A stretch of DNA of 40,905 bases from Candidatus Rokuibacteriota bacterium (lineage in GTDB: Bacteria > Methylomirabilota > Methylomirabilia > Rokubacteriales > CSP1-6): contig JACPCG010000167.1 in assembly GCA_016179925.1 (NCBI GenBank), positions 1-40,905 on the forward strand. The letters are read 5' to 3'. A program made the translations under genes and the position numbers. Below the pieces are notes generated by a model. The model had not been told where the DNA came from. It searched no databases and saw only the letters and a program-made list of their open reading frames with translations. Of this stretch, positions 9,781 through 26,164 are shown in pieces. Numbering within the stretch: position 1 is the first letter of the stretch; each line of letters opens with the position of its first letter.

Positions 9781-10248
9781 ATGGTCACGCTTGTGGTCAA
9801 CGGCAAGTCCCACCGGCTCGACGTCGAGCCTGACACCCCGCTGCTCTATGTCCTGCGCGACAACCTCGGGCTCCACGGCCCGAAGTTCGGCTGCGGGCTG
9901 GCGCAGTGCGGCTCATGTACTGTGCTGATGGACGGCAAGGCCGTGCGCTCCTGCACCTTCGCCGTCAGCAAGGTCGGGCAGGGGAAGATCGTCACGCTCG
10001 AGGGCCTGGGGACTCCCGCTAAGCCCCACCCGATCCAGCAGGCCTTCATCGACGAGCAGGCCGCCCAGTGTGGCTACTGCGTCAACGGCATGATCATGCA
10101 GACGGCTGCCTTCCTCGGCGCCCGGCGCAACCCGAGCGAGCGCGACATCCGCCAGGCGCTCGCCGACAACCTCTGCCGCTGCGGCACCCACCAGCGCATC
10201 ATCGCCGCCGTGAAGCGGGCCGCGGTCCTCATGGGAAAGGGGGCCTGA
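9781..10248 (+). CDS. (2Fe-2S) small subunit of a molybdenum hydroxylase (IorA-type)
   Basis: 155 aa. The N-terminal plant-type ferredoxin domain has ligands Cys38, Cys43, Cys46 and Cys58 (GCGLAQCGSC...RSC). The C-terminal helical [2Fe-2S] domain has Cys97, Cys100, Cys132 and Cys134 (QCGYCVNGM...LCRCGTHQRI). The GLAQCGSC form and the length fit small subunits of two-subunit hydroxylases such as isoquinoline 1-oxidoreductase alpha (IorA). It relays electrons from the molybdopterin subunit encoded 1 nt downstream. There is no signal peptide; the Tat signal on the partner probably carries the complex out. No FAD subunit gene is present, which also fits the Ior type, whose electron acceptor is often a cytochrome. 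Confidence 0.92.
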   Translation: MVTLVVNGKSHRLDVEPDTPLLYVLRDNLGLHGPKFGCGLAQCGSCTVLMDGKAVRSCTFAVSKVGQGKIVTLEGLGTPAKPHPIQQAFIDEQAAQCGYCVNGMIMQTAAFLGARRNPSERDIRQALADNLCRCGTHQRIIAAVKRAAVLMGKGA

Positions 10249-10249
10249 C

Positions 10250-12457
10250 ATGGCGACTCTCGTAACGACCCGACGCGAGTTCCTCGTCGGCACCGGCGCC
10301 CTCGTCGTCAGCTTCAGCCTGACCCCCGGGGCCCTCGCCCAGACAGCCGGCAAGAAGAAGCCCGTCGCCCCGACCGAGGTTGACACCTTCCTCGCCATCG
10401 CCCGGGACGGCACCGTGACCATGTACACGGGCAAGGTGGACATCGGCACCGGCATCCGCGCGGCCCTGCCGCAGATGGTGGCCGAGGAGCTGGACGTGCG
10501 CCTGGACCGCGTGAAGATGGTCGAGGGCGACACCGCGCTCACGCCCGACCAGGGGCCGACGTGGGGGAGCCTCTCCATCCAGATCGCCGGCGTGCAGATC
10601 CGCCAGGCCGCGGCCACGGCGCGCAAGGCGCTGATCGAGCTGGCCGTGCAGAAGCTCGGCATGCCCTCGGCCGACCTCGCCGTGAGGGAGGGCGTGGTCT
10701 TCGTCCGGGCCGAGCCGCATCGGCGGGTCGCCTACGGCGACCTGATCGGCGACCAGGACTTCAACCTCAAGGTGGACCCGGCGGCGCCCCTCAAGAACCC
10801 GAAGGACTACACGATCGTCAGCCAGCCGGTGCCGCGGCCGGACATCCCCGGGAAGGTCACCGGCACCCACACCTACATGCACGACTTCCGCGTGCCCGGT
10901 ATGCTCCACGCGCGCGTGGTGCGGCCGCCGGCCATCGGCGCCACGCTCGAGCGCGTGGACGAGGCCTCGGTGCGCAGGATCAAGGGCGTCAAGGTTGTCC
11001 GGCAGAACGACTTCCTCGCCGTCGTGGCCGAGAGCGAGTGGGCGGCGGTGAAGGCGGCGCGGGCACTCAAGGCGACGTGGTCCAAGTGGGAGGGGCTCCC
11101 CGAGCCGGCCAAGCTCTGGGAGCACGTGCGCAACACGCCTGTCGCCAAGGACGACGTCGCCGCGAACGTCGGCAACGCGAAGACGGCGATGGCGGGTGCC
11201 GCGAAGACGCTCAAGGCGACTTACGACTTCGCCATCCACACCCACGGCTCGATGGGCCCGGCCTGCGCCGTGGCCGACGTGCGCGACGGCAAGGCCGAGA
11301 TCTGGTCGCCCTCGCAGGCGCCGCACTGGCTCAAGCGCGAGGTGGCGGTCACGCTCCAGATGGACCCGGCGAACGTCCACATCCAGTACCTCGACGGCGC
11401 CGGGTGCTACGGCCGGAACGGCCACGAGGACTGCACGGCCGACGCCGCGCTCATCTCCAAGCTGATCGGCAAGCCCGTGCGCGTCCAGTGGTCGCGCGAG
11501 GACGAGCACGGCTGGGACCCGAAGGGCCCGCCCACGCTGCTCGAGCTGCGGGCGGGGCTCGATGCGGCGGGCAGTGTGGTCGCGTGGGAGTCCGAGCTGT
11601 GGGTGCCCAAGGCGGACCTCACCGAGTGGCCGCGCACGCTGGCGGCGACGCACGCCCGGATCCCGCAGAAGGAAGCCATCAACCCGGGCAATATCCACCG
11701 CAACCTGGACGTGTCGTACCCGTTCCCGAACCAGCACTCGGTGGCGCATCGGCTCGCGTCCACGCCGTTCAGGCCCTCGTGGATCCGGACGCCGGGGCGC
11801 ATGCAGAACAGCTACGCGAACGAAGCGTTCCTGGACGAGTGCGCCGCCGCTGTGGGCGCCGACCCGGTGGAGTACCGGCTGCGCCACCTCACCGACCCGC
11901 GCGGGATCGCCGTGCTGCGCGCCGCCGCGATGCGCGCCAACTGGCAGCCGCGGCCGGCGCCCAACCGGGACCAGTCCGGCCCGATCGCCAAGGGCCGGGG
12001 CGTCGCCTACGTGAAGTACGAGAACACCCGCACCTACGTCGCCGGCGTCGCCGAGGTGGAAGTGAACAAGCAGACGGGGGCGATCCGCTGCACGCGCTTC
12101 GTCGTCGCCCACGACTGCGGCCTCATCATCAACCCCGACGGCGTGCGCGCCCAGGTCGAGGGCAACATCATCCAGACGGTCTCGCGGACGCTCAAGGAAG
12201 AGGTGAAGTGGAACCGCTCGCGGGTGACGAGCGTGGACTGGGCGAGCTACCCGATCCTGAGGTTCCCCGAGGTGCCCGAGGTCGTGATCGAGCTGATCAA
12301 TCGGCTCAACGAGCCGCCGTGGGGCGTGGGCGAGCCGGCCGCGTGCCTGCCGCCGCCGGCGATCTCCAACGCCGTCTTCGACGCCATCGGCGTGCGCCTC
12401 CGCAGCGTGCCCTACACGCCGGCCAAGGTGAAGGCGGCGCTGGGGGCGAAGGCCTGA
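10250..12457 (+). CDS. Molybdopterin-binding large subunit of an exported molybdenum hydroxylase (IorB-type)
   Basis: 735 aa. The N-terminus has a twin-arginine signal: TTRREFLVGTGALVVSFSL, then a likely cleavage after GALAQ near residue 30. The mature protein has the Ior-type molybdopterin domains: GKVDIGTGIRAALPQMVAEEL (about 60-80), GSMGPACAVADV, GCYGRNGHEDCTADA, and NSYANEAFLDECAAAVGADPVEYRLRHL. The catalytic Glu of GVGEP is at about 695. Its segment order differs from xanthine dehydrogenase, as is usual for IorB. Such enzymes hydroxylate N-heteroaromatics or oxidise aldehydes in the periplasm; the substrate is not predictable here. A strong hairpin follows the stop. Confidence 0.92.
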   Translation: MATLVTTRREFLVGTGALVVSFSLTPGALAQTAGKKKPVAPTEVDTFLAIARDGTVTMYTGKVDIGTGIRAALPQMVAEELDVRLDRVKMVEGDTALTPDQGPTWGSLSIQIAGVQIRQAAATARKALIELAVQKLGMPSADLAVREGVVFVRAEPHRRVAYGDLIGDQDFNLKVDPAAPLKNPKDYTIVSQPVPRPDIPGKVTGTHTYMHDFRVPGMLHARVVRPPAIGATLERVDEASVRRIKGVKVVRQNDFLAVVAESEWAAVKAARALKATWSKWEGLPEPAKLWEHVRNTPVAKDDVAANVGNAKTAMAGAAKTLKATYDFAIHTHGSMGPACAVADVRDGKAEIWSPSQAPHWLKREVAVTLQMDPANVHIQYLDGAGCYGRNGHEDCTADAALISKLIGKPVRVQWSREDEHGWDPKGPPTLLELRAGLDAAGSVVAWESELWVPKADLTEWPRTLAATHARIPQKEAINPGNIHRNLDVSYPFPNQHSVAHRLASTPFRPSWIRTPGRMQNSYANEAFLDECAAAVGADPVEYRLRHLTDPRGIAVLRAAAMRANWQPRPAPNRDQSGPIAKGRGVAYVKYENTRTYVAGVAEVEVNKQTGAIRCTRFVVAHDCGLIINPDGVRAQVEGNIIQTVSRTLKEEVKWNRSRVTSVDWASYPILRFPEVPEVVIELINRLNEPPWGVGEPAACLPPPAISNAVFDAIGVRLRSVPYTPAKVKAALGAKA

Positions 12458-12550: not shown

Positions 12551-12970
12551 CTACGGGAGCGGCATGCCGAGCCAGCGCTTGAAGACGACGTGGCTCGCGA
12601 TCGCGATCGCCCCCGTCAGCACGATCGTCGCCGCCCACGAGAAGGCGCCGAGGGTCCGCAGGAGGACGAGGACGAACAGCGCGGTCGCGGGCAGGAAGCC
12701 GAGGGGCGGCAGCACCGCCACGTAGAGCACGAGCACGCCGAACACGAAGGCGACGCGGCGCCGGGGCGACGCGTCGGGCCACGCGGGGAGCTCGGCCGGT
12801 GTCATGGCCGGCACGAAATGGCCCGCCCCCAGCACGGCGAGCACGAGGGCGAGGGCGGCGGGCATGAGCTTGGCGCCCGGCCAGTCGTCCCGGATGCGGA
12901 GGGCTTCGAAGAGGGAGATCGCGCCGAGCGCGACGAGGACCCCGCCACACAGAAGGTTCGCGCGCCGCAT
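12551..12970 (-). CDS. TctB-family small membrane subunit of a tripartite tricarboxylate transporter, orphan
   Basis: 139 aa, starting at the ATG at 12970. Four hydrophobic segments are visible: about 5-22 (LLCGGVLVALGAISLFEAL), 36-55 (LMPAALALVLAVLGAGHFV), 73-92 (VAFVFGVLVLYVAVLPPLGF) and 93-130, split by TLGAFSW. That four-helix arrangement with RIRDDWPGAKLMP in the first loop is the TctB pattern. TctB works with the 12-helix TctA and a binding protein TctC. Neither is here: downstream on this strand is the end of the IorB-like gene, and upstream is a deleted SDR. It may serve a TctA elsewhere or be a leftover of a lost operon. Confidence 0.8.
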   Translation of the reverse strand: MRRANLLCGGVLVALGAISLFEALRIRDDWPGAKLMPAALALVLAVLGAGHFVPAMTPAELPAWPDASPRRRVAFVFGVLVLYVAVLPPLGFLPATALFVLVLLRTLGAFSWAATIVLTGAIAIASHVVFKRWLGMPLP

Positions 12971-13148: not shown

Positions 13149-14198
13149 TCAGCGAAGCCCGGCCGCGCGCAAACGCGGGAACACGACGTCGCGGAAGGCG
13201 CGGATCTCCGGCTCGGGTCCGACGAAGGTCTGGCACGGCATCAGGTAGATGTTCCGGACGCCGAGCTTCGTCATCTCGGCGATCCGTCCGGCGCAGTCCT
13301 CGGGCGTCCCGATGAGGCCCAGCGCGTCACAGAGCTGCGCGACGGTCTCGTCCGGCACGAAGGAGGTCGCCGCGATGGCCGCCTCCCAGTCGTGGGCGTG
13401 CGAGAGGTCGGGATAGATCTTCCACACGGCGTCGGGGATCTCGAGCGGCGGCAGGCGGAGCCCGGCGGGCCCGAGCCACTGGCCGCCCCAGCGGAGGATC
13501 CCCCAGTGGACCGCGGTCGGCCGCGCGGCACGACGCGCCTCTTCGGTGGTCGCCGCCGTCCCCGTCCGCACCGCCCAGATGATCTCGAGGTCCTCGACGC
13601 GGCGGCCGGCCCGCCGTGCGCCGCGCTCGAGATGCGCCAGCGCGGTCTCCACGATGCCCCGGTTGAACCCCACCAGGAGGAGCGCGCCGTCGGCGATCTC
13701 GCCGGCGACCTCGATCGCCTTCGGTCCCGACGCCGCCATCAGCACCGGGATGCGCCGGCCCGCGGCATAGCCGAGCCGCCCGCGCGTGCCGCTGAAGTCG
13801 ACGGTCTCGCCGGCCAGCAGGGCCTTCACGGTGGCGATGCACGCGCGCATCTCGGCGAGCGTGGCGGGCCGGCGTCCGATCGTGCTCGCGGAGGTGTAGC
13901 CGGTGCCGATGACGAACTTCACGCGGCCCGGGGCCAGCTCTTCGACCGTCTGGATCGTGCCCGCGAGCACGGAGGCGTGCCGCGTGAACGGATTCGTCAC
14001 CGCGGGGAACAGCGCCAAGCGTGACGTGCAGGCGGCCGCCTGTCCGAGGATGACGAAGGCATCGCGGCTGAGCATCTGGCTGTCGAGGATCCCGACGCCG
14101 TCGAAGCCCGCGGCTTCGATGGACTGGATCAGCCGCATCAACTCGGGCATCGGGGCGGTACCGGGGACACGCAGATGGACGCGAACAGGCTCGGTCAT
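13149..14198 (-). CDS. LLM-class flavin-dependent oxidoreductase (luciferase-like, F420- or FMN-dependent)
   Basis: 349 aa from the ATG at 14198, preceded by GGGGAG. The luciferase-like TIM barrel is clear: IEAAGFDGVGILDSQML (about 28-44), RLALFPAVTNPFTRHASVLAGTIQTVEEL, GRVKFVIGTGYTSASTIGRRPA, and GRRIPVLMAASGPKAIEVAGEIADGALLLVG in pieces. GxGYTSxxTIGR and PVLMAASGPKAxEVAGE resemble 5,10-methylenetetrahydromethanopterin reductase-like members, many of which use F420. The C-terminus (GTPEDCAGRIAEMTKLGV) is typical. It is divergent from the UGSC selenoprotein gene across 83 bp, and TAGAAT (14218 to 14213, minus) is a probable -10. Shared promoter space suggests possible co-regulation; the substrate is unknown. 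Confidence 0.88.
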   Translation of the reverse strand: MTEPVRVHLRVPGTAPMPELMRLIQSIEAAGFDGVGILDSQMLSRDAFVILGQAAACTSRLALFPAVTNPFTRHASVLAGTIQTVEELAPGRVKFVIGTGYTSASTIGRRPATLAEMRACIATVKALLAGETVDFSGTRGRLGYAAGRRIPVLMAASGPKAIEVAGEIADGALLLVGFNRGIVETALAHLERGARRAGRRVEDLEIIWAVRTGTAATTEEARRAARPTAVHWGILRWGGQWLGPAGLRLPPLEIPDAVWKIYPDLSHAHDWEAAIAATSFVPDETVAQLCDALGLIGTPEDCAGRIAEMTKLGVRNIYLMPCQTFVGPEPEIRAFRDVVFPRLRAAGLR

Positions 14199-14245
14199 GA
14201 TGGGCTCCCCGGATTCTATCGCGAACCCGGGATCCCGGCCCGGCC

Positions 14246-14274
14246 TTGACAGCGCCGGGACGAACGCCCAGAGT
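14246..14274 (+). promoter_or_regulatory. Promoter of the UGSC selenoprotein gene, predicting a leaderless mRNA
   Basis: TTGACA (14246-14251), 17-nt spacer, CAGAGT (14269-14274). Only 7 nt separate the -10 element from the ATG at 14282, so transcription should begin at or within a base or two of the start codon. No Shine-Dalgarno sequence is visible, which fits leaderless translation. Confidence 0.55.
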
Positions 14275-14281
14275 CGTGCCC

Positions 14282-15985
14282 ATGACACCCTCCAGTCGAG
14301 AGCCCGTCTTCGAGGTGGTGTGGCCGCTCGCGCCCTCGGCGGCCGCGGCTCAGGCGCTGGCCGCGCGCATTCCCGACCTTTCCGGCAAGACGGTCGGTGA
14401 GCTGTGGGACTACCTCTTCAAGGGCGAGGAGATCTTCCCGCTCATCCGGCGCGCGCTCGCGTGGCGCTACCCCGGCATCCGCTTCGTCGAGTACGAGACG
14501 CTCGGCACGATCCACGGCCGCGACGAAGCGGAGCTGGCGGCGACCCTGCCGGACCAGCTCCGCAAGCACGGCTGCGACGCCGTCATCTCGGCCGTCGGCG
14601 CCTGAGGGAGCTGCACGCCCGCCGTGCTGCGGGCCGCGGCGATCGCCGAGCGGGCCGGCCTGCCGAGCGTCTCGATCGTCACCACGCCGTTCATGCAGCA
14701 GGCCGCCGTCGTCATGAAGGGCGTCGGCATGCCGGGGCTGCCGATCGCCGAGTATCCCGGCGTCCCGATGACCGACGGGTCCGACACCGTGCGCGCGAAG
14801 GTCGAGGCGCTGATCGAGCCGATCGTCGCGGGCCTGGCGAGGCCGGTGGCGACGACGGCGACGGCGTCCGTCGAGCCGGGGCCGCGCGACGTCGTCTTCA
14901 GCGGGACGCTCGACGAGGTCCAGGACTTCTTCTACCGGAACCTCTGGACCGACGGCCTGCCGGTGATCCCGCCCACGATTCCGAGGGTGGAACGCTTTCT
15001 CGAGTTCACGAAGCGCTCGCCCGGCGAGGTGATCGGACACCTCTTGCCCGAGAACCGCGCCGCCACCGTCTGGAGCATCGCGGTCAACGGCGTGATGGCC
15101 GGCTGCCGTCCGGAGTACATGCCGCTCCTCGTCGCCCTCGTCCAGGCCATCGCTGAGCCGGAGTTCCGCGTGCAGGACGCGGGCTCGACCCCGGGCTGGG
15201 AGCCGCTCGTGATCGTGAGCGGTCCCGTCGTGAGGGCGCTCGATCTCAACCACGGCCAGGGCGTGATGCGCGTGGGCCGCCAGGCCAACACGAGCCTCGG
15301 GCGGTTCCTGCGCCTCTATCTGAGGAACATCGCCGGGCTCCGCATTCCTCCCGGCGCCGGCGACAAGGGGAGCATCGCGTCCACCTTCAACGTGGCGCTC
15401 GCCGAGGACGAGGCGGCGGCGGCCGAGATGGGCTGGACGACGTTCGGCCAGGACCAGGGCTTCGCCCGCGACGACAGCGTCGTCACCGTCCAGAGCGTGG
15501 TGAGCGCGAGCCCGCCGATCTACACGGCGGGCACGCGCGCCCTCGACCACGTCCAGGTGCTGGCCGAGGTCTTCGGGCGGGCGTGCGCTTACTGGTCGTG
15601 CACGGGGATGAAGTACGCGCGGTGGCAGCCGCTGCTCGTGATCGGCCCGAGCATCGCGAAGGTCATCGCGGCCGACGGCTGGAGCAAGGACGACGTGCGC
15701 AAGTATCTCCACGAGCACGTCACGATCCCCGCGCGCGAGGCCGAGAAGTATGCCTGGCACCTCGGAAGCACGGCGTTCAGCCTGCGGGCTCAGGTGGAAG
15801 CGGGCGTGCTGCCCCCGGAGTACGCGGCGTCCGGCGATCCCGACCGGCCGGTGCCGGTCTTCGTCAAACCCGAGTGGATCGGCATCGTCGTCGCGGGCGA
15901 TCCCGGCCGCAACCAGTCGAAGGGCTACTGCAACAACCACATCCAGGGCGGGCGCGTCAGCAAGCGAGTGGCCCTGACGCTATAG
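14282..15985 (+). CDS. UGSC-family selenoprotein with in-frame TGA (Sec108) and a fused second domain
   Basis: 567 residues from the ATG at 14282 if the TGA at 14603-14605 is read as selenocysteine. Before it the protein reads KTVGELWDYLFKGEEIFPLI and CDAVISAVGA. Immediately after the TGA, in the same frame, comes GSCTPAVLRAAAIAERAGLPS, the UGSC motif that names this family; some members have Cys in place of Sec. The UGSC domain spans about 1-185. From about 200 on lies a second domain with TDGLPVIPPT (about 223-232), NGVMAGCRPEYMPLL and a Cys in YWSCTGMKYARW; I recall it as a widespread uncharacterised family often encoded beside UGSC genes. Sec next to Cys suggests thiol/selenol redox or peroxidase-like chemistry, but no activity is established. 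The 3' end overlaps the convergent ABC gene by 6 nt. Sel genes are not in the window. Confidence 0.87.
14603..14648 (+). promoter_or_regulatory. Selenocysteine TGA codon and candidate bacterial SECIS hairpins
   Basis: TGA is at 14603-14605. Two hairpins lie in the next 45 nt. The first (14610-14630) pairs GC, one T-T mismatch and GCACG/CGTGC around the loop CCCGC. The second (14637-14648) pairs CGGC/GCCG around GATC; its loop begins 36 nt after the TGA with a G, as bacterial SECIS loops usually do. Either could recruit SelB; base pairing alone does not decide between them. Confidence 0.5.
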
Positions 15986-16717
15986 CCCGAGGGCCCCCCG
16001 GTCGCTGCCGAGGTATACGTCGACGACGGCCGGATCGGCGGCGACGGCCGCGGGCGGCCCCTCGGCGATCTTCTCTCCGGCGCTGAGCACGATGAGCCGG
16101 CGCGAGAGGTCCATGAGGGCCCACACGATGTGCTCGACCATGAGGAGGGTCAATCCCCCGGCCACGAGCCTGCGGATGAGCGTCATGGCGCTCGCCGTCT
16201 CGGCGGGGTTGAGGCCGGCCATGAACTCGTCGAGCAGCAGGAGCTGCGGGGAGGTCGCCAGCGCCCGCGCCAGCTCGAGGCGCTTCCGGTCGATGAGCGT
16301 GAGCTGGGCGGCCGGCACGCCCGCCCGGGCCTCGAGCCCGACGAGGGCGAGCAGCCGCTCGGCCTCCGCGAGCGCTTCGGCGGTCGTCCCCCGGGCGCGG
16401 CCGTAGAGGCGCCCGACGAGGACGTTCTCCAGCGCCGAGAGCCCGGCGAAGGGCCGGACGAGCTGGAAGGTGCGCGCGACGCCGCGGGCGCAGATCCGGT
16501 GGGGCGTGAGCCCGGCGATGTCGTGGCCGCGAAGGCGGATGCGCCCCGCGTCGGGGGAGAGGGCGCCGGCGATCAGGTTGAAGAGCGTCGTCTTGCCCGA
16601 CCCGTTCGGGCCCATGATGCCGAGCAGCTCGCCCTCCTCGAGCGTGAAGCTGACGTCGTGGACGGCGCGGACCCCGCCGAAGCTCTTCGACACCCGCTCC
16701 ACCTCGAGGAGGGGCAT
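15980..16717 (-). CDS. Branched-chain amino-acid-type ABC transporter ATP-binding protein (LivG-like)
   Basis: 245 aa from the ATG at 16717, with GAGG upstream. Walker A GPNGSGKT is at 36-43 and Walker B LLLLDE at 159-164. The signature is LTLIDRKRLELARAL (139-153), a LivG variant lacking the usual SGGQ. TFQLVRPFAGLSALENVLVG is also characteristic of LivG. It energises uptake of amino acids or amides with LivH/LivM permeases, but no permease genes adjoin it. A Liv-type binding protein is encoded 1.8 kb upstream on the same strand (18497-19678), so the two may be remains of one operon interrupted by the debris between them. It overlaps the UGSC gene end by 6 nt. Confidence 0.88.
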   Translation of the reverse strand: MPLLEVERVSKSFGGVRAVHDVSFTLEEGELLGIMGPNGSGKTTLFNLIAGALSPDAGRIRLRGHDIAGLTPHRICARGVARTFQLVRPFAGLSALENVLVGRLYGRARGTTAEALAEAERLLALVGLEARAGVPAAQLTLIDRKRLELARALATSPQLLLLDEFMAGLNPAETASAMTLIRRLVAGGLTLLMVEHIVWALMDLSRRLIVLSAGEKIAEGPPAAVAADPAVVDVYLGSDRGALGL

Positions 16718-18496: not shown

Positions 18497-19678
18497 TCAG
18501 CGCTTCGCGAACGGCGGAGCCGGATAGCCGAGCGGCGCCGTCGCCGACTCCTTGGGCCAGACCAGCTCCTGCTTGCCGTTGAGCCACTGCACGAACACCG
18601 ACTGGACGATGCCCGTGCCGTCGGGGCGGAACTTCAGGGGCCCGACGACGGTGGTCATGCTGGTGGCGGCGATCGCGTCGCGCAGCTTCTCGCGGTCGAG
18701 GGAGCCGGCGCGCGTGACGGCGGCGGCCAGGATCTGCACGCACGCGTACGCGGGGCCGGCGATGGGATCGGCGGGGCGGCCGATCTTCTTCACGTGCGCC
18801 TCGTTCAGCTCCTTCACGCCGGGCGCCTTCACGGCGTAGTGCCAGCCGGGCGCGAGCAAGACGAAATCGCCGTCCTTGCCCAGATTCTTCGACCAGATCG
18901 GCGGATCAGGGGCTCGGATGAACAGCGTGAGCTTCGGAGTGTAGCCCAGCTCCTTCATCTGCTTGATCATCGTCATGCCGTCGGGAGGCGTGGGCAGCGC
19001 GAAGACGGCATCCGCGTTCGCGGCCTTGGCTTTCAAGATCACGTCGGAGAAGTCCTTCGCTCCCGGGGCGTACTCGCCCTGCACGACCACCTGGTAGCCC
19101 GCGGCCTTGCCGGCCTCGACCCAGGCCAGGGCCATCTCGCGCCCCCAGTCCGTCTTCTCCTGGAGGATCGCGACGGTCTTCGGGCGCTCGGCGGCGGCGA
19201 TGGTGGAGAGCAGCCCCTGCACGGCCTGGCCGATGTCGGGCGATTTCCAGAAGGGCGAGAAGAGGTAGCGGAACCCCTGCTGGTGGACCTTGTTCAGCGC
19301 GAAGGCCACGCCGAGGTAGGGGATCCGGTTCTTCTCGGCCACGGAGGCGGCCGCGGCGTGGAGGTCCGAGCCGAATCCGCCGAGGTAGACGGCCACGCCT
19401 TGCGCGGCCAGCGTCTCGAGGCGGCTCACCGTCTTGGTGGCGTCGGACTCGTCGTCGAGCAGGACCAACTCCAGCGGCATCTTCTTGCCGCCCACGGTGA
19501 CGCCCCCGGCGGCGTTCAGGTGCTCGACCGCGATCTCGTAGCCCGCCCGCACCTGGGCGCCCCCGGCGCCGTAGCGGCCGGTGAGGGGGACCACGGCGCC
19601 GAGCTTGATGGATTGCGCCGCCGCGGGAAGCGGACCGATGCCGACGACCGCGAGTACCAGCAGGGCGAGGAATCTCAT
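18497..19678 (-). CDS. Liv-type ABC transporter substrate-binding protein
   Basis: 393 aa. The ATG at 19678 has AGGAGGAG 5 nt upstream and begins a classic Sec signal peptide (MRFLALLVLAVVGIGPLPAAA, cut near AAAQS). The mature protein is a type I periplasmic binding protein: IKLGAVVPLTGRYGAGGAQV (about 24-43), the LDDESDATKTVSRLETLAAQ segment, and GFGSDLHAAAASVAEKNRIPYLGV. It should capture a branched amino acid, amide or aromatic acid outside the membrane. No permease genes follow on this strand; an orphan LivG-like ATPase lies 1.8 kb downstream. A DinB gene lies 14 nt upstream. Confidence 0.9.
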   Translation of the reverse strand: MRFLALLVLAVVGIGPLPAAAQSIKLGAVVPLTGRYGAGGAQVRAGYEIAVEHLNAAGGVTVGGKKMPLELVLLDDESDATKTVSRLETLAAQGVAVYLGGFGSDLHAAAASVAEKNRIPYLGVAFALNKVHQQGFRYLFSPFWKSPDIGQAVQGLLSTIAAAERPKTVAILQEKTDWGREMALAWVEAGKAAGYQVVVQGEYAPGAKDFSDVILKAKAANADAVFALPTPPDGMTMIKQMKELGYTPKLTLFIRAPDPPIWSKNLGKDGDFVLLAPGWHYAVKAPGVKELNEAHVKKIGRPADPIAGPAYACVQILAAAVTRAGSLDREKLRDAIAATSMTTVVGPLKFRPDGTGIVQSVFVQWLNGKQELVWPKESATAPLGYPAPPFAKR

Positions 19679-19692
19679 GGGTCTCCTCCTAT

Positions 19693-20097
19693 TCATGGTT
19701 CTGTCGGGCCCCACAGGCGTCCAGCCGTCGCCGCGATCTGCGCCGCGTGGTCCTCGGCGTGATCGGCCGCCCAGCGGGCGAGGAGCTCGATGGACATCGC
19801 TCCGCGCTCGGGGTGACGGCCGGCGCGTTGCCAGTCCGCATCCGGTAGTGCTCGCAGGAGGCGCGCGATCTGTTCGTGCTCGGCGACGATCATGTCGAGC
19901 ACTTCGTTGAGGGGCTCCGGTTCCTGGAGGTTGGCGCGGCGAACGGGGCGCGCGTGCACCAGCGTCTCCTGCACGGACCACTCGCCGGGGACCGGCGTCT
20001 GCGTCTCCTTGCCCGCCGGAACCGTCCGCACCGCGGCGGCCAGCACCGCGGCCGAGGACCTGACGCGACCGACCAGCTGCGCGTGCTCTGGACTCAT
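19693..20097 (-). CDS. DinB-family protein, shorter than usual
   Basis: 134 aa from the ATG at 20097. VPGEWSVQETLVHARPV, then IVAEHEQIARLLRALPDADW and SIELLARWAADHAEDHAAQI, matches the four-helix DinB/YfiT-like fold with metal-binding His residues (one near residue 48, others in HAEDHAAQI). Relatives run to about 160-170 aa; the segment between ETLVHAR and EPEPLNEVLDMI seems to lack about 30 residues, perhaps by an in-frame deletion. Known relatives are thiol transferases or of unknown function. It sits between a transporter binding protein and a MetE-like gene on the same strand, with short gaps (6 and 14 nt). Confidence 0.75.
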   Translation of the reverse strand: MSPEHAQLVGRVRSSAAVLAAAVRTVPAGKETQTPVPGEWSVQETLVHARPVRRANLQEPEPLNEVLDMIVAEHEQIARLLRALPDADWQRAGRHPERGAMSIELLARWAADHAEDHAAQIAATAGRLWGPTEP

Positions 20098-20103
20098 CTT
20101 CGG

Positions 20104-21189
20104 TCAGCGGCCCCAGACCAGGCGGGCCGTCTCCGCCACGCGGTGGAGCTTCATGCGCTGATCCTCCGGGGTGACGCGGTTACCCTCCATGGTGGAGGCG
20201 AAGCCACACTGGGGGCTCAACGCCAGCCGCTCCAGGGGGACGAACTTCGCCGCCTCGTCGATGCGCCGGCGCAGCTCGTCCACGGACTCCAGGCGCGGCT
20301 TTTTCGTCGTAACCAGCCCGAGCACGACCACGCGGTCCCCGGGCATCGCGCGCAGCGGCTCGAAGCCTCCCGAGCGCTCGTCGTCGTACTCGAGGAGGAA
20401 ACGCTGGAAGCGGCTCCGGCCGAACACGCGGGCGATGGGCTCGTACCCGCCGCTCGCGTAGAACATCGACTGGTTGTTGCCGCGGCAGATGTGGAGCCCG
20501 AAGGTGACGCCGGGGTGGTTGCCGATGACCGCGTTATCCATCTCGATGCAGGCGTCGATGAGCCGGTCGGGGTCGCTGCCCCGCTTCCGGTATCCCTCGC
20601 GGAGATCGGGGTCCAGCAGCGCCGCGTACTGGGGCGCGTCAATCTGGATGTACGCGCAGCCGAGCCTCACCAGCTCCTCCACCTCGCGGCGCGTGAGGTC
20701 CACGACGTCCGCGAGGTAGGCGTCGCGCGTCGGGTAGGCGCCGGCCGACTTCTCGGGGTCGTAGTAGGCCGCCGCCTGCTGGCTGCTGATGAGCGTCACC
20801 TTCGTGGGCCGCGCGGTGCGCGCGCGCAGGTAGACGAACTCCTCGGCGCACATGCTTCGCCGCCAGCGGAGCTTGTCCACCACCACCGGCCGTTTGAAGA
20901 CGAGCTCGCCGCCCTGCTCGTCGTGGAACGGGATGGCCCAGCCGCCGAACTTGTCGAAGCCGTCGAGGGCGTCGATGAGGTGGCCGAAGAAGGCGTAGCG
21001 CCTGAGCTCGCCGTCGGTGAGCACGTCCAGCCCCGCCTCTTCCTGGAGCCGGACCGCCTCGTCCACCGCGCGGTCCTCGATGCGCTTGAACTCGGCCGCG
21101 CCGATCGTCCCCGCGTCCCACCGCTGGCGCGCCTCTTTCAGGGACTCCGGCCGCAGCAAGCTTCCGACCACGTCGCTCCGGACGTTCAC
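20104..21189 (-). CDS. MetE-core-like zinc methyltransferase (cobalamin-independent methionine synthase II family)
   Basis: 361 aa if started at the GTG at 21189, which has GAGGAGG 5 nt upstream; a GTG at 21195 is too close to that site. SDVVGSLLRPESLKEARQ and AGLDVLTDGELRR open the TIM barrel. The zinc ligands of the MetE C-terminal domain are recognisable as His233 and Cys235 (HICRGNN), Glu267 and Cys328 (SPQCGF). Full MetE has an N-terminal duplicate domain missing here. Such one-domain proteins transfer methyl groups from unknown donors, or act on non-methionine substrates. A second family member closes the Liv operon at 26165-27205. A good promoter lies upstream (21231-21259). Confidence 0.88.
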   Translation of the reverse strand: MNVRSDVVGSLLRPESLKEARQRWDAGTIGAAEFKRIEDRAVDEAVRLQEEAGLDVLTDGELRRYAFFGHLIDALDGFDKFGGWAIPFHDEQGGELVFKRPVVVDKLRWRRSMCAEEFVYLRARTARPTKVTLISSQQAAAYYDPEKSAGAYPTRDAYLADVVDLTRREVEELVRLGCAYIQIDAPQYAALLDPDLREGYRKRGSDPDRLIDACIEMDNAVIGNHPGVTFGLHICRGNNQSMFYASGGYEPIARVFGRSRFQRFLLEYDDERSGGFEPLRAMPGDRVVVLGLVTTKKPRLESVDELRRRIDEAAKFVPLERLALSPQCGFASTMEGNRVTPEDQRMKLHRVAETARLVWGR

Positions 21190-21230
21190 GGGCACCTCCT
21201 CACGAAAAATCGCGCCGCCGCCGTGCGCTG

Positions 21231-21259
21231 TTGATACTGGCAGACCTGACGGTTGTCAA
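21231..21259 (-). promoter_or_regulatory. Promoter of the MetE-like, DinB, binding-protein group
   Basis: On the minus strand TTGACA (21259 to 21254), 17-nt spacer, TATCAA (21236 to 21231). The start of transcription near 21224 gives a leader of about 35 nt before the GTG at 21189. The -35 lies at the very end of the truncated ATPase frame. Confidence 0.55.
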
Positions 21260-21570
21260 GGTGCGCTCTCAGCGCCGGCCGAGCTCCCGGAGGGCGCGGT
21301 CGCGGTGGGCGAAGGTGAAGAGCTTGTCGCGGTCAGCGGCGTCCCCGGCCGGTCGGCCGCGATGCGCACCTCGCCGGCGCTCTGGCGGAGAAGGCCGGCG
21401 AGCACCCGGAGCAGCGTGGACTTGCCGCTGCCGCTCGGCCCGACGATGCAGAGGAACTCGCCGGCGGCGACCTCGAGCGAGACCCGGTCGAGGGCCAGGA
21501 CCGCGTGGCCGTGGCTCTCGAAGGTCACGCTGACCTCGTTCATGAGGACCTTGGGGGAGTGCGTCTGCAT
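21256..21570 (-). pseudogene. Truncated ABC transporter ATPase (nitrate/sulfonate type N-terminus only)
   Basis: From the ATG at 21570 the minus strand reads [20 protein letters not shown] and [20 protein letters not shown], an SsuB/TauB-like start with Walker A. After [11 protein letters not shown] the family stops: no Q-loop, signature, Walker B or switch His follows. The frame then runs through low-complexity residues to a stop at 21256. In another frame the same DNA reads [20 protein letters not shown] to a stop, perhaps the end of a second gene. So an ATPase head is joined to a foreign tail. Confidence 0.65.
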
Positions 21571-21718
21571 TAGGGCTCCGTGGGTCGCATGGCCGGCCCC
21601 GACGGCGGGGCGATTCTGCCTGAGCGCCCTCGGCGGTTCAAGGGGATCGGCGCTCGACACGGCGCCCGGGCCGTTCCATCTGATCTATAATCCGCATATC
21701 TCAGCAAGGAGGCTCGTG

Positions 21719-22810
21719 ATGACGACGCATCGACTGACCCGTCGCAAGCTCCTCACGACCGCGGCCGGCGCCGCCGTCCTCGGATTTCCGCTCCCACTCC
21801 GCGCCCAGCCGAAGACGTTCAAGGTCGGCGCGATCCATCCGGTGACGGGCCCGCTCGCCGAGCCCGGCCAGGCGTGCCGCCTCGGTGCGCAGATGGCGGC
21901 CGAGGCGATCAACGCGGCGGGCGGCATCAAGTCCAAGGGCGGCATCAAGCTCGAGCTGCTGGTCGGCGACACGCAGACCAAGCCCGAGAACGGCCGCGTC
22001 GAGGCCGAGCGCGTCGTCCAGCAGGGCGCGCAGATGCTCCTGGGGTCGTTCGATTCCGGCTCGACCAACGCGATGGTGTCCGTCGCCCAGCAGCGGAGGG
22101 TGCCGTTCCTGGTGGACATCGCCGCGGCCGACCCGATCACCGCCAATGTCGCGAAGGCGGTGAGGGAGGGCCAGCAGAAGGTCCAGTACGTCTACCGCAA
22201 CTTCCCGACGGGCTCGAGCTTCGGCCGCAAGGCCGTCCAGTACTTCACCGAGATCTTCAGGGAGGCCGGGGTGTCGCCGAAGCGCGTCGTCCCGATCACG
22301 CGGCCGGCCTCCGCGCAGCTCCTGCTGCCGGAGATCCGGAAGCAGAAGGTCGAGATCCTGGGCGTCGTCAGCCCGGGGAGCCCGGGCCTCTACGAGGCCG
22401 GCCAGATCGCGGCGCTCAAGGAAGACCTCGAGTACGTGATGGCGAGCGTGCCGTGGCCCAACTTCAAGAACCCGAAGACGAAGACGCTCGCCGAGGAATA
22501 CCAGAAGCGCTCCGGCGGCAAGACCTTCGACACGAACTCCGGCTACTCGTACGACGCCATGTTCGTCATCGCCGACATCCTCGAGCGCGCGGCGCGGCTG
22601 GACGACCCCGACACGATCGTCGACGCGATGAGGAAGACGAACTACACGGCCGGCCTGATGCAGTACGGTGGCCCCATCCTCTTCAACGAGATCGGGGACA
22701 ACCCGAACGCCATCCCGACGATGATCCAGATCCTCGGTCAGAAGCCTGTGGCCGTGTGGCCCAAGGAGGCCGCGCTCCAGAAGTTCGTCTTCCCGCGACC
22801 CAAGGCCTAG
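21719..22810 (+). CDS. Liv-type ABC transporter substrate-binding protein with Tat-like signal
   Basis: 363 aa. The ATG at 21719 has AAGGAGG 6 nt upstream; TATAAT at 21686-21691 may be the -10. The N-terminus (THRLTRRKLLTTAAGAAVLG) is a twin-arginine-type signal, cut near LRAQP. The mature protein is a type I binding protein: FKVGAIHPVTGPLAEPGQAC, LLVGDTQTKPENGRVEAERV, LLGSFDSGSTNAMVSVAQQR. It opens the cassette binding protein-LivH-LivM-LivG-LivF-MetE-like, all on the plus strand. A perfect 32-bp inverted repeat separates it from the permease gene, which probably allows higher expression of the binding protein than of the membrane parts. Confidence 0.93.
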   Translation: MTTHRLTRRKLLTTAAGAAVLGFPLPLRAQPKTFKVGAIHPVTGPLAEPGQACRLGAQMAAEAINAAGGIKSKGGIKLELLVGDTQTKPENGRVEAERVVQQGAQMLLGSFDSGSTNAMVSVAQQRRVPFLVDIAAADPITANVAKAVREGQQKVQYVYRNFPTGSSFGRKAVQYFTEIFREAGVSPKRVVPITRPASAQLLLPEIRKQKVEILGVVSPGSPGLYEAGQIAALKEDLEYVMASVPWPNFKNPKTKTLAEEYQKRSGGKTFDTNSGYSYDAMFVIADILERAARLDDPDTIVDAMRKTNYTAGLMQYGGPILFNEIGDNPNAIPTMIQILGQKPVAVWPKEAALQKFVFPRPKA

Positions 22811-22816
22811 GACACC

Positions 22817-22899
22817 AGGGCAGCGGGGGCCGGAGCCCCTCCGAGACCACGTCGACAACAGCTTACGGGTCTCGGAGGGGCTCCGGCCCCCGCTGCCCT
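22817..22899. repeat. Perfect 32-bp inverted repeat between binding-protein and permease genes
   Basis: Arm 22817-22848 is the exact reverse complement of 22868-22899, with a 19-nt loop. The arms are GC-rich (core GGGGCCGGAGCCCC) and begin 7 nt after the binding-protein stop and end 14 nt before the LivH ATG. As RNA it would form a very stable hairpin. Possible roles are stabilising the upstream message, partial termination, or a mobile REP/MITE-like element; no target-site duplication was recognised. Confidence 0.9.
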
Positions 22900-22912
22900 C
22901 CAGTCGCTTCCC

Positions 22913-23782
22913 ATGGATCCGACACTCGTTTTGCAGGGCGTGCTGAGCGGCTTGCTGTTCGGCGGGGTGTACAGTCTCATGGCCGTCGGCCTCACGCTGA
23001 TCTTCGGCGTGATGCGCGTCGTGAACTTCGCCCACGGCGACATGATGGTCTGGGGCATGTACCTCGCGCTCCTGCTCTCGACGCGCGCCGGCCTCGACCC
23101 CTACCTCGCGTTCGTCGCCTGCGCCGCGGCGCTCTTCGCGCTCGGGCTCGCCGTCCAGCGCGGGCTCGTGGACCGCATCGTGGACGCGCCCCACGAGATG
23201 CAGATCCTCCTCATGCTCGGCGTGGCCCTCGTGCTCGAGAACCTCGCCCTCGTGGCCTTCGGGCCCGAGCCGGCGCGTGTCCGGTCGGCGCTCTCCACCG
23301 CGACGGTGTGGCTCGGCCCCGTGTTCGTGGACGTCGCCCGGCTCGTGACGTTCGCCGTCGCGGTGGTGCTGACGCTCGCGCTCTACCTGTTCCTCTTCCG
23401 GACCGACGTCGGCCGGACGGTCCGCGCCGCCGCCGACAACACCTACGGTGCGCTCGTGATCGGCACCGACGTGCGGCGCGTCTACGCGGTCGCGTTCGGC
23501 GTCGGCGCGGCGTGTGTGGGCGCGGCGGGCGCGCTCGTCTCGCCGATCCTCCCGTTCCAGCCGGCCACCGGGCTCTCGCTCTCGGTGGCGTCGTTCAACA
23601 TCGTGATCATCGGCGGCATGGGGAGCCTGCTCGGCGCCTTCATCGGGGGGCTCCTCGTCTCGGTCGCCGAGTCGCTGGGCGCCGTCTTCCTCAAGCCCTC
23701 GCTGAAAGAGCTCTTCAGCTTCTCGCTGCTGATCGTGATCCTCCTGTTCCGCCCCGCCGGCCTCTTCGGCAAGCGCCTGTAA
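22913..23782 (+). CDS. livH: Branched-chain amino-acid-type ABC permease (LivH family)
   Basis: 289 aa from the ATG at 22913. About eight hydrophobic helices are visible, starting with LLFGGVYSLMAVGLTLIFGV (about 14-33). The family segment VVNFAHGDMMVWGMYLAL follows, and ADNTYGALVIGTDVRRVYAV is the cytoplasmic EAA-like loop that docks the ATPases. GGMGSLLGAFIGGLLVSVAE near 225-245 is also diagnostic. It forms the channel with LivM. The stop overlaps the livM start by one base (TAATG), so the pair is co-translated. Confidence 0.93.
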   Translation: MDPTLVLQGVLSGLLFGGVYSLMAVGLTLIFGVMRVVNFAHGDMMVWGMYLALLLSTRAGLDPYLAFVACAAALFALGLAVQRGLVDRIVDAPHEMQILLMLGVALVLENLALVAFGPEPARVRSALSTATVWLGPVFVDVARLVTFAVAVVLTLALYLFLFRTDVGRTVRAAADNTYGALVIGTDVRRVYAVAFGVGAACVGAAGALVSPILPFQPATGLSLSVASFNIVIIGGMGSLLGAFIGGLLVSVAESLGAVFLKPSLKELFSFSLLIVILLFRPAGLFGKRL

Positions 23783-24735
23783 TGGGCCCGTGGCTCTGGC
23801 TCGCGGCCCTCGCCGTGCTGCTGGCGCTGCCGGCGGTGCTGAGCGGCTACGTCGTGACCATCTTCATCCTCATCTTCTTCTACGGCTTCCTCGGCCAGGC
23901 GTGGAACATCGTCGGCGGCTACACGGGCCAGCTCTCGGTGGGCCACGCGGCCTTCGTCGGGATCGGCGGCTACACGGCCGCGATGCTCTCGATCGAGGCC
24001 GGCCTGACGCCGTGGATCGGCATGTTCATCGGCGGCGCGCTCGCGGCCGTACTCGGGGCGATCATCGCCTACCTCGGCTTCCGCTTCGGTCTGCGGGGCT
24101 TCTACTTCGTGCTGCTCACGGTCGCGTTCGCCGAGGTGTGCCGGATCCTCGCGTCGAACATCGACGCGATCGGCGGCGCGCTCGGGCTCTACATCACGTT
24201 CACGGGCAACCCACGCCAGTTCCAGTTCCAGGACCAGCGCGCCTACTACTACGTGGCGCTCGCGCTCATGATGGCGGCGACCGGCGTGGTGGCGGTGATC
24301 GAGCGCCGGCGCTTCGGGATCTACCTCACCGCGATCCGCGAGGACGAGGCGGCGTGCGAGGCGCTCGGCGTCAACACGTTCAAGTACAAGATGCTCGCGA
24401 TGCTCGTGTCGTCGTTCCTCACGGGGATCGGCGGCACGTTCTACGCCTACTACCTCTTCTCGCTCCAGCCGAGCACAGTGTTCGGGATCCCGCTCTCGGT
24501 CGAGATCATCATTCGGCCGATCGTCGGCGGTGCCGGCACGCTGCTCGGGCCGATCCTCGGCTCGTTCATCCTGACGCCGCTCGGCGAGCTGTCGCGGTCC
24601 TACTTCGGGCAGGGCGGGATGTACGGCGTGCACCTCATCGCCTACGGGGTCCTCTTGATCGCGGTCGTGCTGTTCCTGCCGCACGGCGCGTATCCGTATC
24701 TCACGCGCCTGTTCGGCGGCCGGCCCCGGGCATGA
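23782..24735 (+). CDS. livM: Branched-chain amino-acid-type ABC permease (LivM family)
   Basis: 317 aa from the ATG at 23782. It has several hydrophobic helices and the LivM signature region AWNIVGGYTGQLSVGHAAFV (about 45-64), followed by GIGGYTAAML. The docking loop is IREDEAACEALGVNTFKYKM (about 190-209). GGAGTLLGPILGSFILTPLGEL mirrors LivH's GGMGSLLGAF. The TGA lies within the ATGATG start of livG, so translation of channel and ATPase genes is coupled. Confidence 0.93.
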   Translation: MGPWLWLAALAVLLALPAVLSGYVVTIFILIFFYGFLGQAWNIVGGYTGQLSVGHAAFVGIGGYTAAMLSIEAGLTPWIGMFIGGALAAVLGAIIAYLGFRFGLRGFYFVLLTVAFAEVCRILASNIDAIGGALGLYITFTGNPRQFQFQDQRAYYYVALALMMAATGVVAVIERRRFGIYLTAIREDEAACEALGVNTFKYKMLAMLVSSFLTGIGGTFYAYYLFSLQPSTVFGIPLSVEIIIRPIVGGAGTLLGPILGSFILTPLGELSRSYFGQGGMYGVHLIAYGVLLIAVVLFLPHGAYPYLTRLFGGRPRA

Positions 24736-25472
24736 TGGCGCCGCTCCTCGAGGTCTCCGGGCTCTCGAAGCGGTTCGGCGGGCTCCAGGCCGTGAAGGAC
24801 CTCTCGCTCGCCGTCGCGGAAGGGGAGATCGTGGGGCTGATCGGCCCGAACGGCGCCGGCAAGACGACCGCGTTCGGCCTGATCTCCGGCTTCCTCGCGC
24901 CGGATTCCGGCGCAGTCCGCTTCCGCGGACGCTCCACCCTCGGGCTCTCGCCCCACGAGCTGTGCGCGCTCGGCATGGCGCGGACGTTCCAGATCATGCG
25001 CCCGTTCCCGCGCCTCTCCGTCGTCCGCAACGTGATGATCGGCGCGCTGGGCCGCCACGCCGACCCGCGCGATGCCGAAGCGCGGGCGCGCGCCGTCCTG
25101 GACGAGCTGGGGCTCGCCGCGAAGAGCGGGCAGCCCGCCGGGAGCCTCACGCTGGCCGAGCGCAAGCGCCTGGAGCTGGCGCGGGCGCTCGCGACCGAGC
25201 CCGTCCTGCTCCTGCTCGACGAGGTGATGTCGGGCCTCAACGAGGTCGAGACCGAGCGGCTCGTCGAGGAGGTGCGCGCGATCAACGGGCGCGGCGTCGC
25301 GATCCTCCTGATCGAGCACGTCATGCGCGCCGTCATGTCGCTCGCCGGGCGCATCGTCGTCCTCAACTACGGCGAGCGGATCGCCGAGGGGCGGCCCCAG
25401 GCGGTCGCCAACGACCCGAAGGTCGTCGAGGCGTATCTGGGAGACGAGAGTGTCGGCGCTGCTCCGGCTTGA
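24732..25472 (+). CDS. livG: Branched-chain amino-acid-type ABC ATPase (LivG family)
   Basis: 246 aa from the first of two ATGs at 24732 and 24735. Walker A is GPNGAGKT (about 38-45). TFQIMRPFPRLSVVRNVMIG is the LivG Q-loop region, and LTLAERKRLELARAL replaces the common LSGGQ signature, as in the orphan LivG at 15980-16717. Walker B is LLLLDEVMSGLN and the switch His lies in LLIEHVM. The last 23 nt overlap livF. LivG and LivF form the heterodimeric motor of the transporter. Confidence 0.93.
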   Translation: MMAPLLEVSGLSKRFGGLQAVKDLSLAVAEGEIVGLIGPNGAGKTTAFGLISGFLAPDSGAVRFRGRSTLGLSPHELCALGMARTFQIMRPFPRLSVVRNVMIGALGRHADPRDAEARARAVLDELGLAAKSGQPAGSLTLAERKRLELARALATEPVLLLLDEVMSGLNEVETERLVEEVRAINGRGVAILLIEHVMRAVMSLAGRIVVLNYGERIAEGRPQAVANDPKVVEAYLGDESVGAAPA

Positions 25473-26163
25473 CGGGCTCGAGGCGGGGTACGGCGACATG
25501 ACCGCCATCCGCGGCGTCTCGCTCGAGGTCCGCCAGGGCGAGATCGTCGCGCTCATCGGCTCGAACGGCGCGGGCAAGACGACGACGCTCCGCGCGATCT
25601 GCGGCCTCCTCCCGCTCCGCCGCGGCACCGTCGAGCTCGACGGGCGGCGGATCAGCGGGCTCAGGTCCGCGGCCGTCGTGGCGGGCGGGATCGCCCACGT
25701 GCCGGAGGGCCGCCAGCTCTTCCCCACGATGACCGTGCTCGAGAACCTCGAGCTGGGCGCCCGCAGCACCGAGAGCCGGCGCCGGCGGGGGGAGACGCTC
25801 GAGCGGGTGTTCGCGCTCTTCCCGCTCCTGGCCGAACGCCGCGGGCAGCTCGCCGGGACGCTCTCCGGCGGCGAGCAGCAGATGACCGCGATCGGGCGCG
25901 CGCTGATGGCGCGCCCGCGGCTCCTCATGCTCGACGAGCCCTCGCTCGGCCTGGCGCCGGTCACCGTCTCGTCCATCTTCGCCAACCTCGCGGCGATCAA
26001 CCGCGACGGCGTGACGATCCTCCTCGTCGAGCAAAACGTGCTCCGCGCGCTCCGCCTCTCCCACCGCGCCTACGTGCTCGAGAACGGCACGATCGCGCTC
26101 GAGGGCGCGAGCCAGCGCCTCCTGGTGGACGAGGGCATCAAGCGCGCATACTTCGGTCGCTGA
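25450..26163 (+). CDS. livF: Branched-chain amino-acid-type ABC ATPase (LivF family)
   Basis: 237 aa from a GTG at 25450, inside the end of livG. Walker A is GSNGAGKT (about 38-45), the signature LSGGEQQMTAIGRAL (about 140-154), Walker B RLLMLDEPSLGLAP, and switch His is replaced by Gln in LLVEQNV, normal for LivF. AHVPEGRQLFPTMTVLENLELG is the family-specific Q-loop stretch. The stop is 1 nt before the ATG of the MetE-like gene. Confidence 0.93.
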   Translation: MSALLRLDGLEAGYGDMTAIRGVSLEVRQGEIVALIGSNGAGKTTTLRAICGLLPLRRGTVELDGRRISGLRSAAVVAGGIAHVPEGRQLFPTMTVLENLELGARSTESRRRRGETLERVFALFPLLAERRGQLAGTLSGGEQQMTAIGRALMARPRLLMLDEPSLGLAPVTVSSIFANLAAINRDGVTILLVEQNVLRALRLSHRAYVLENGTIALEGASQRLLVDEGIKRAYFGR

Positions 26164-26164
26164 G

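Follow-up and report, generated by a model that had tools for sequence, protein, structure and literature searches.

A fused UGSC-U1 selenoprotein gene in a Rokubacteriales genome and its relation to the selenocysteine domain of GrdB and PrdB

Introduction

The UGSC proteins raise the question of what selenocysteine (Sec) does in a family that is among the most abundant metagenome selenoproteins, that has stood without a function since 2008 in the portions of the literature covered, and whose genes are cut in two by gene callers. In the available passages of their 2008 study, Zhang and Gladyshev reported 255 UGSC sequences in GOS and, in Fig. S1A, a UGSC/Unknown_1 fusion from aquatic metagenomes (PMC2398784); the selenoprotein, the UGSC family (now PF24696) and the fusion are to that extent already known. 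Here we examine a 40,905-nucleotide stretch of DNA (the window), which forms contig C80 in a metagenome-assembled genome (3.57 Mb, 81% complete) of Candidatus Rokuibacteriota bacterium (genome G000; hereafter the source MAG). An original prediction, made from the letters of the window, had placed a UGSC-family protein with Sec at codon 108 and a second C-terminal domain at positions 14282-15985. We ask whether this TGA is read as Sec, how the second domain is related to the first and which chemistry the two may perform together.

The gene and its selenocysteine codon

On the forward strand, a 567-codon frame starts at ATG 14282, meets TGA as codon 108 (14603-14605) and ends at the TAG at 15983-15985. 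The sequence bears out the prediction that the frame stays open beyond the TGA and that the residues directly 3′ of it are GSCT, with the correction that the open part counts 459 sense codons before the TAG and not 460. Translation by the standard code splits the frame, again as foreseen, into a 107-residue stub from ATG 14282 (119 residues if started at TTG 14246) and a 453-residue open reading frame from GTG 14624. Third-position GC content is 0.90 in the half before the TGA and 0.95 in the half after it, a strong bias as in real genes. An antisense frame on the reverse strand (14216-15940) was taken as a GC-rich shadow.

The Pfam family PF24696 matches residues 11-185 (14312-14836, forward strand) across the TGA with 101.3 bits (E 8.5e-29; gathering cut-off 25 bits), and this assignment of the UGSC domain agrees with an AlphaFold2 model and with a profile match to the Sec domain of GrdB. 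The protein shares with the family the domain match across the TGA, the UGSC motif and the presence of Sec or Cys at the site. It differs in carrying a further domain, U1, at residues about 204-567, and in scoring only 56.3 bits against the NF041046 equivalog, below the curated cut-off of 125, and is filed under the broader Pfam entry only. Automatic annotation that relied on NF041046 would likely miss this branch of UGSC.

Comparison of homologues bears most directly on the TGA. The motif UGSCT occupies residues 108-112, and the columns of Sec108, Gly109, Cys111 and Thr112 are invariant in an alignment of 24 homologues, Sec108 forming the UxxC pair with Cys111. All 29 same-class homologues that cover the site, the window included, show TGA with G-[SGV]-C-[TV] directly after it; orthologues of 44-85% identity retain the codon; and each of about 150 UGSC matches among the matches listed from 95 genomes of the class has exactly one TGA. 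Two apparent exceptions with a second TGA (L031 and L033) carry the additional codon 5′ of a plausible start, and homologue frames of 700-980 residues, in the cases examined (L018, L032 and L039), owe their length to a GC-rich extension 5′ of such a start. Across phyla, TGA is found in 42 of the 43 named-genome loci with a readable site, and the Sec-type homologues read come from Rokubacteria, Chloroflexi, Betaproteobacteria and Binatia. The remaining locus, from Chelativorans (L100), has Cys (TGT) in the same two-domain architecture, and Cys forms with TGC occur on plasmids of cultured strains, as a fusion in Variovorax boronicumulans (WP_319362312.1) and as separate genes in two Natrinema, which brings the Cys-type homologues in cultured organisms to four. 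The replacement by Cys that the prediction had proposed looking for is therefore found, and the pattern that would have spoken against Sec, a site that is consistently a stop, was not seen, every homologue read having TGA or Cys. On either side of the TGA, dN/dS among close orthologues lies at 0.2-0.36, reflecting purifying selection of similar strength on the two sides.

The frame across the TGA is far from chance because PF24696 spans the codon, orthologues keep it and dN/dS is low on both sides. These comparisons also bear on the idea that the TGA is a sequencing error, lies in a pseudogene or is read throughout as another amino acid, for which we found no supporting point. The same TGA recurs in independent assemblies from several phyla, the residue that replaces it is Cys and not Trp, and orthologues L012-L014 end on TGA as their stop; a reading of UGA as some other sense codon was rejected on the Cys substitution, and we consider the whole explanation barely credible. 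Codon 108 is instead well supported, by homologue comparison, as a genuine Sec site, and with the intact frame and orthologues of the same architecture, positions 14282-15985 are confirmed as one complete UGSC-U1 selenoprotein gene encoding 567 residues with Sec108.

A putative SECIS element

Directly 3′ of the TGA, positions 14617-14634 of the forward strand may form a bacterial SECIS, in which a 6-bp stem (GCCCGC at 14617-14622 with GCGGGC at 14629-14634) closes the loop CGUGCU (14623-14628). The folding energy of the window sequence alone shows no excess stability over shuffles (z +0.7), and because this GC-rich sequence folds no better than they do, the case uses comparative evidence only. 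In 41 window-type sequences 96% of the pairs are kept, as against a mean of 58% after resampling of synonymous codons drawn with each gene's own usage; for a second SECIS type, whose stem is displaced by one base, the figures are 98% and 65%. The same resampling applied to the window sequence alone gave p=0.024. Among the compensatory changes, U-A replaces G-C, and the second type has C-G and A-U in place of G-C; sliding the partners lowers pairing to 29-53% in an alignment of 16 diverse sequences picked by hand. The Cys homologue L100 has two of the six stem pairs broken. Rfam gave no match above gathering score near the gene. Conservation of the stem-loop beyond the expectation from codon usage thus supports a putative SECIS.

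Selenium machinery

The original prediction had suggested a search for selA, selB, selC and selD, and the outcome was divided. The source MAG has selD (contig C102, L040:1531) with an in-frame TGA of its own (AACAG-U-ASKM), and at 81% completeness it yielded no selA, selB or tRNASec (selC) above cut-off. Its nearest relative, the near-complete genome G003, carries tRNASec, selA and selB on one contig within 4.7 kb. SelB is above cut-off in all other family genomes examined, and tRNASec is found in nearly all of them. The 17-kb region around the G003 sel locus finds only short scattered matches in the source MAG, without a syntenic match. An assembly gap is the simplest explanation of the absent genes, and gene order may differ between genera.

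The missing selA, selB and tRNASec, together with the GTG at 14624, are what could be said for TGA 14603 as a normal stop that ends a 107-residue protein ahead of a separately initiated 453-residue one. That GTG, which a gene caller takes as the start, sits in the apical loop of the putative hairpin. Against this reading stand the SECIS evidence, the TGA or Cys in every homologue read, the purifying selection before and after the codon, the Sec-containing SelD of the genome and the sel locus of near relatives. We regard it as very improbable.

At two betaproteobacterial loci, L072 and L087 (the latter from a Comamonadaceae MAG), the fused gene adjoins selA, selB, the thioredoxin reductase gene trxB and tRNASec. 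This selA-selB-trxB-tRNASec arrangement next to UGSC-U1 (L072:3064-7733, and L087) looks like a self-contained cassette.

The U1 domain as a partner of UGSC

The second domain proposed in the original prediction is present as U1, which homologue comparison and an AlphaFold2 model (pLDDT 92.9) place at 14891-15982 on the forward strand. It has no Pfam family and no sequence relative in the PDB. Sequence searches of the PDB with alignments A1 and A5 gave no match, and PDB fold searches with the whole chain and with U1 yielded no convincing match, the U1 model giving weak matches to class I fumarases and cyanuric acid hydrolase. In the passages covered, the 2008 study too has a UGSC selenoprotein joined to a conserved domain of unassigned function, and its Unknown_1 is likely U1 (PMC2398784). 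The fusion on which the prediction remarked is real and, having been reported in 2008, not unusual.

Whether the second domain is normally a separate neighbor had been left as a matter to check, and often it is. U1 lies immediately upstream in eight of eight Binatia/Desulfurellaceae-type loci that have a separate UGSC gene and upstream sequence (L110, whose locus is cut by a contig end, was left out of the count). Within the same class as the window, two listings read together give 20 cases, spread over 19 genomes, of separate U1 and UGSC genes paired in the same direction, and in Natrinema the separate genes stand in the order UGSC-U1. The source MAG has eight UGSC genes, with separate U1-UGSC pairs on contigs C96 and C16 and a further fusion on C136. 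Genome architecture shows U1 to be a regular partner of UGSC, encoded next to it by a gene of its own or joined to it in one protein, on either side, and both are multicopy.

Several loci outside the class have arrangements of their own. In a Chloroflexi MAG the two domains are fused in reverse order, U1-UGSC, the TGA lying within the UGSC portion (L085:4296-6050). The Chloroflexi MAG NC_groundwater_644 (L073-L101, JACPQD01 contigs) has at least 20 UGSC-U1 loci, many of which adjoin multiple SBP_bac_5 binding proteins, MmgE/PrpD and, in some cases, glycyl radical enzymes. On haloarchaeal plasmids (L128:5914-8460 and L130:5905-8438) UGSC in its Cys form, U1 and DUF6282 make up a conserved gene set, and DUF6282 may be a third component alongside the two.

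Relation of the UGSC domain to GrdB and PrdB

The Sec domain of UGSC has detectable relatives. The GrdB model TIGR01917 (NCBIfam) weakly matches 19 of the 24 homologues (best E 7e-5), and hhalign aligns the UGSC domain with the C-terminal domain of GrdB at 96% (E 2.8e-9, 96 columns) with Sec on Sec, compared with 0.9% for an unrelated Rossmann dehydrogenase family (SDR) and 4.9% for GrdE as controls. GrdB-like proteins of the same phylum likewise carry, where the PF07355 region ends, a U that is encoded by TGA and precedes G-[TS]. In common with GrdB, GrdF and GrdH of glycine, betaine and sarcosine reductase and with PrdB, UGSC has the motif U-G-[TS]-x-[TN] and an 'ER.G.P' helix. Homology of the UGSC domain to the Sec-bearing domain of GrdB and PrdB, Sec on Sec, is on this profile evidence well supported, and extends over the Sec domain only, about 100 residues.

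Beyond that domain the systems diverge. UGSC-U1 lacks the PF07355 N-terminal region (the window protein has no Pfam match to it, and the comparison of profiles A1 and A3 was not significant) and has no pyruvoyl-forming GrdE/PrdA partner. U1 as GrdE/PrdA (PF09338) was ruled out by profile comparison, hhalign giving 0.1% against a GrdE-like profile. Unlike glycine reductase, UGSC-U1 is found without GrdA in the genomes that carry its closest orthologues (G000, G001, G003, G018, G066 and G067), and the near-complete G003 has neither GrdA nor GrdB. Acyl transfer to GrdA would therefore not be needed. In the literature searched, of which passages were covered, we found no statement of a link between UGSC and GrdB/PrdB; as far as found, this homology, U1 as a regular partner and the multicopy state of both are new.

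GrdA with TGA occurs in 16 of the 95 genomes of the class. Several of the GrdB-like selenoproteins of Methylomirabilota (L044-L062) read UGTS or UGTG, the second Cys of UxxC not being conserved.

The same evidence bears on the proposal that UGSC is a general thiol/selenol oxidoreductase of thioredoxin-like kind, with U1 handling a protein or small molecule that it keeps reduced. The UxxC motif fits such a role, as do the Trx-like fold predicted in the available part of the 2008 study (PMC2398784), the thioredoxin reductase within the L072 sel cluster and a peroxidase activity of GrdB named in the title of reference B55 in PMC3091704. The AlphaFold2 model (pLDDT 86.9), however, shows alternating strands and helices in a Rossmann-like arrangement, strand 100-106 preceding Sec108 and helix 111-124 following it; this predicted topology of repeated strand-helix units is not that of thioredoxin, and no thioredoxin appears among the best 50 PDB matches. 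With sequence relatives that are GrdB and PrdB, and with multicopy paralogues beside uptake and catabolic genes, a setting more in keeping with a substrate enzyme than with a housekeeping reductase, we judge a general oxidoreductase unlikely.

Genomic context and proposed reaction

The neighbors of UGSC-U1 are carboxylate-uptake and catabolic genes. In the window these neighbors are only loosely linked, neither flanking gene being co-directional with it: a luciferase-like (LLM) flavin oxidoreductase (PF00296, by domain match) lies divergently at 13149-14288 and a LivG-type branched-chain amino acid ABC transporter ATPase convergently at 15980-16717, both on the reverse strand. A tripartite tricarboxylate transporter is represented on that strand by a TctB-like membrane subunit (PF07331) at 12551-12970. 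TctC and TctA recur beside homologues. Across loci we counted 46 peptide-type ABC binding proteins of the SBP_bac_5 family at 16 loci, 18 TctC-type proteins at 10 and 13 MmgE/PrpD proteins at 10, with CaiB, acyl-CoA dehydrogenase, HyuA/HyuB, TctA, CitE-like, ornithine-cyclodeaminase-like (OCD) and glycyl radical proteins as further neighbors. No single neighbor is common to all loci, and hence no substrate is pinned down.

Taken with the GrdB/PrdB homology, the recurrence of uptake and catabolic genes leads us to lean modestly towards UGSC-U1 being a thiol-dependent reductive cleavage enzyme for small carboxylates, with U1 replacing GrdE/PrdA. In D-proline reductase, as described in the passages covered of PMC3091704, PrdB uses its Sec to attack the bound substrate at the alpha carbon, forming a selenoether, and a PrdB cysteine then frees the product and leaves a mixed selenide-sulphide. 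By analogy, U1 would hold and activate a small carboxylate-type substrate in the place of GrdE/PrdA, and Sec108, which heads a helix of the predicted Rossmann-like fold, would attack the carbon bearing the leaving group, giving a selenoether. The leaving group would most likely be an amine, with sulfur, oxygen or halide possible, making C-N cleavage the likeliest reaction. Cys111 would release the reduced product, and thioredoxin would re-reduce the resulting Sec108-Cys111 selenenylsulfide. Judging by the neighbors, the reaction may belong to the breakdown of organic acids taken up by the cell, and different substrates may account for the large number of UGSC-U1 paralogues. Recruitment of GrdB-type proteins to other small carboxylates has a precedent in the GrdB-like fluoroacetate-degrading system of Cloacibacillus, which, in the parts of the report covered, is an operon of GrdB-complex homologues and not UGSC-U1 (PMC10838667). 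Against this explanation stands U1 itself, whose role we only infer because it has no detectable homology to GrdE/PrdA and no assigned fold. The original prediction had left the function of UGSC proteins unassigned; the GrdB/PrdB homology narrows it, and reaction and substrate are still a matter of inference.

The MmgE/PrpD and CitE-like neighbors would also suit non-reductive Sec chemistry, such as a lyase, hydratase or isomerase reaction on dicarboxylates, and class I fumarases are the best PDB match of both models (E about 1e-3). These fumarase matches have TM-scores of only 0.19-0.25 and rmsd values of 14-18 Å, however. Class I fumarases need an Fe-S cluster, for which U1 lacks an invariant Cys as ligand; the near-invariant UxxC pair in turn argues for redox chemistry. 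We think non-reductive chemistry improbable.

More tentatively, and with some doubt, we propose that UGSC-U1 is a separate and widespread class of Sec-dependent reductive-cleavage enzymes, which would combine the Sec domain of GrdB/PrdB with a new substrate domain, U1, would dispense with a pyruvoyl subunit, and would have diversified into numerous paralogues among bacteria of soil and groundwater. Cultured Variovorax, Chelativorans and haloarchaea would carry the enzyme in its Cys form. The link of the Sec site to GrdB/PrdB and the U1 partner together give a concrete chemical hypothesis, the first testable function for the family, and the Cys versions in cultured strains allow it to be tested without selenium machinery.

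Two other gene groups were seen in the window. A two-subunit molybdenum oxidoreductase of the aldehyde/xanthine type, with a 2Fe-2S subunit and a MoCo subunit, lies at 9781-12457, and at 18497-27205 branched-chain amino acid-type ABC transporter genes are interleaved with those of two short MetE-like (Meth_synt_2) proteins.
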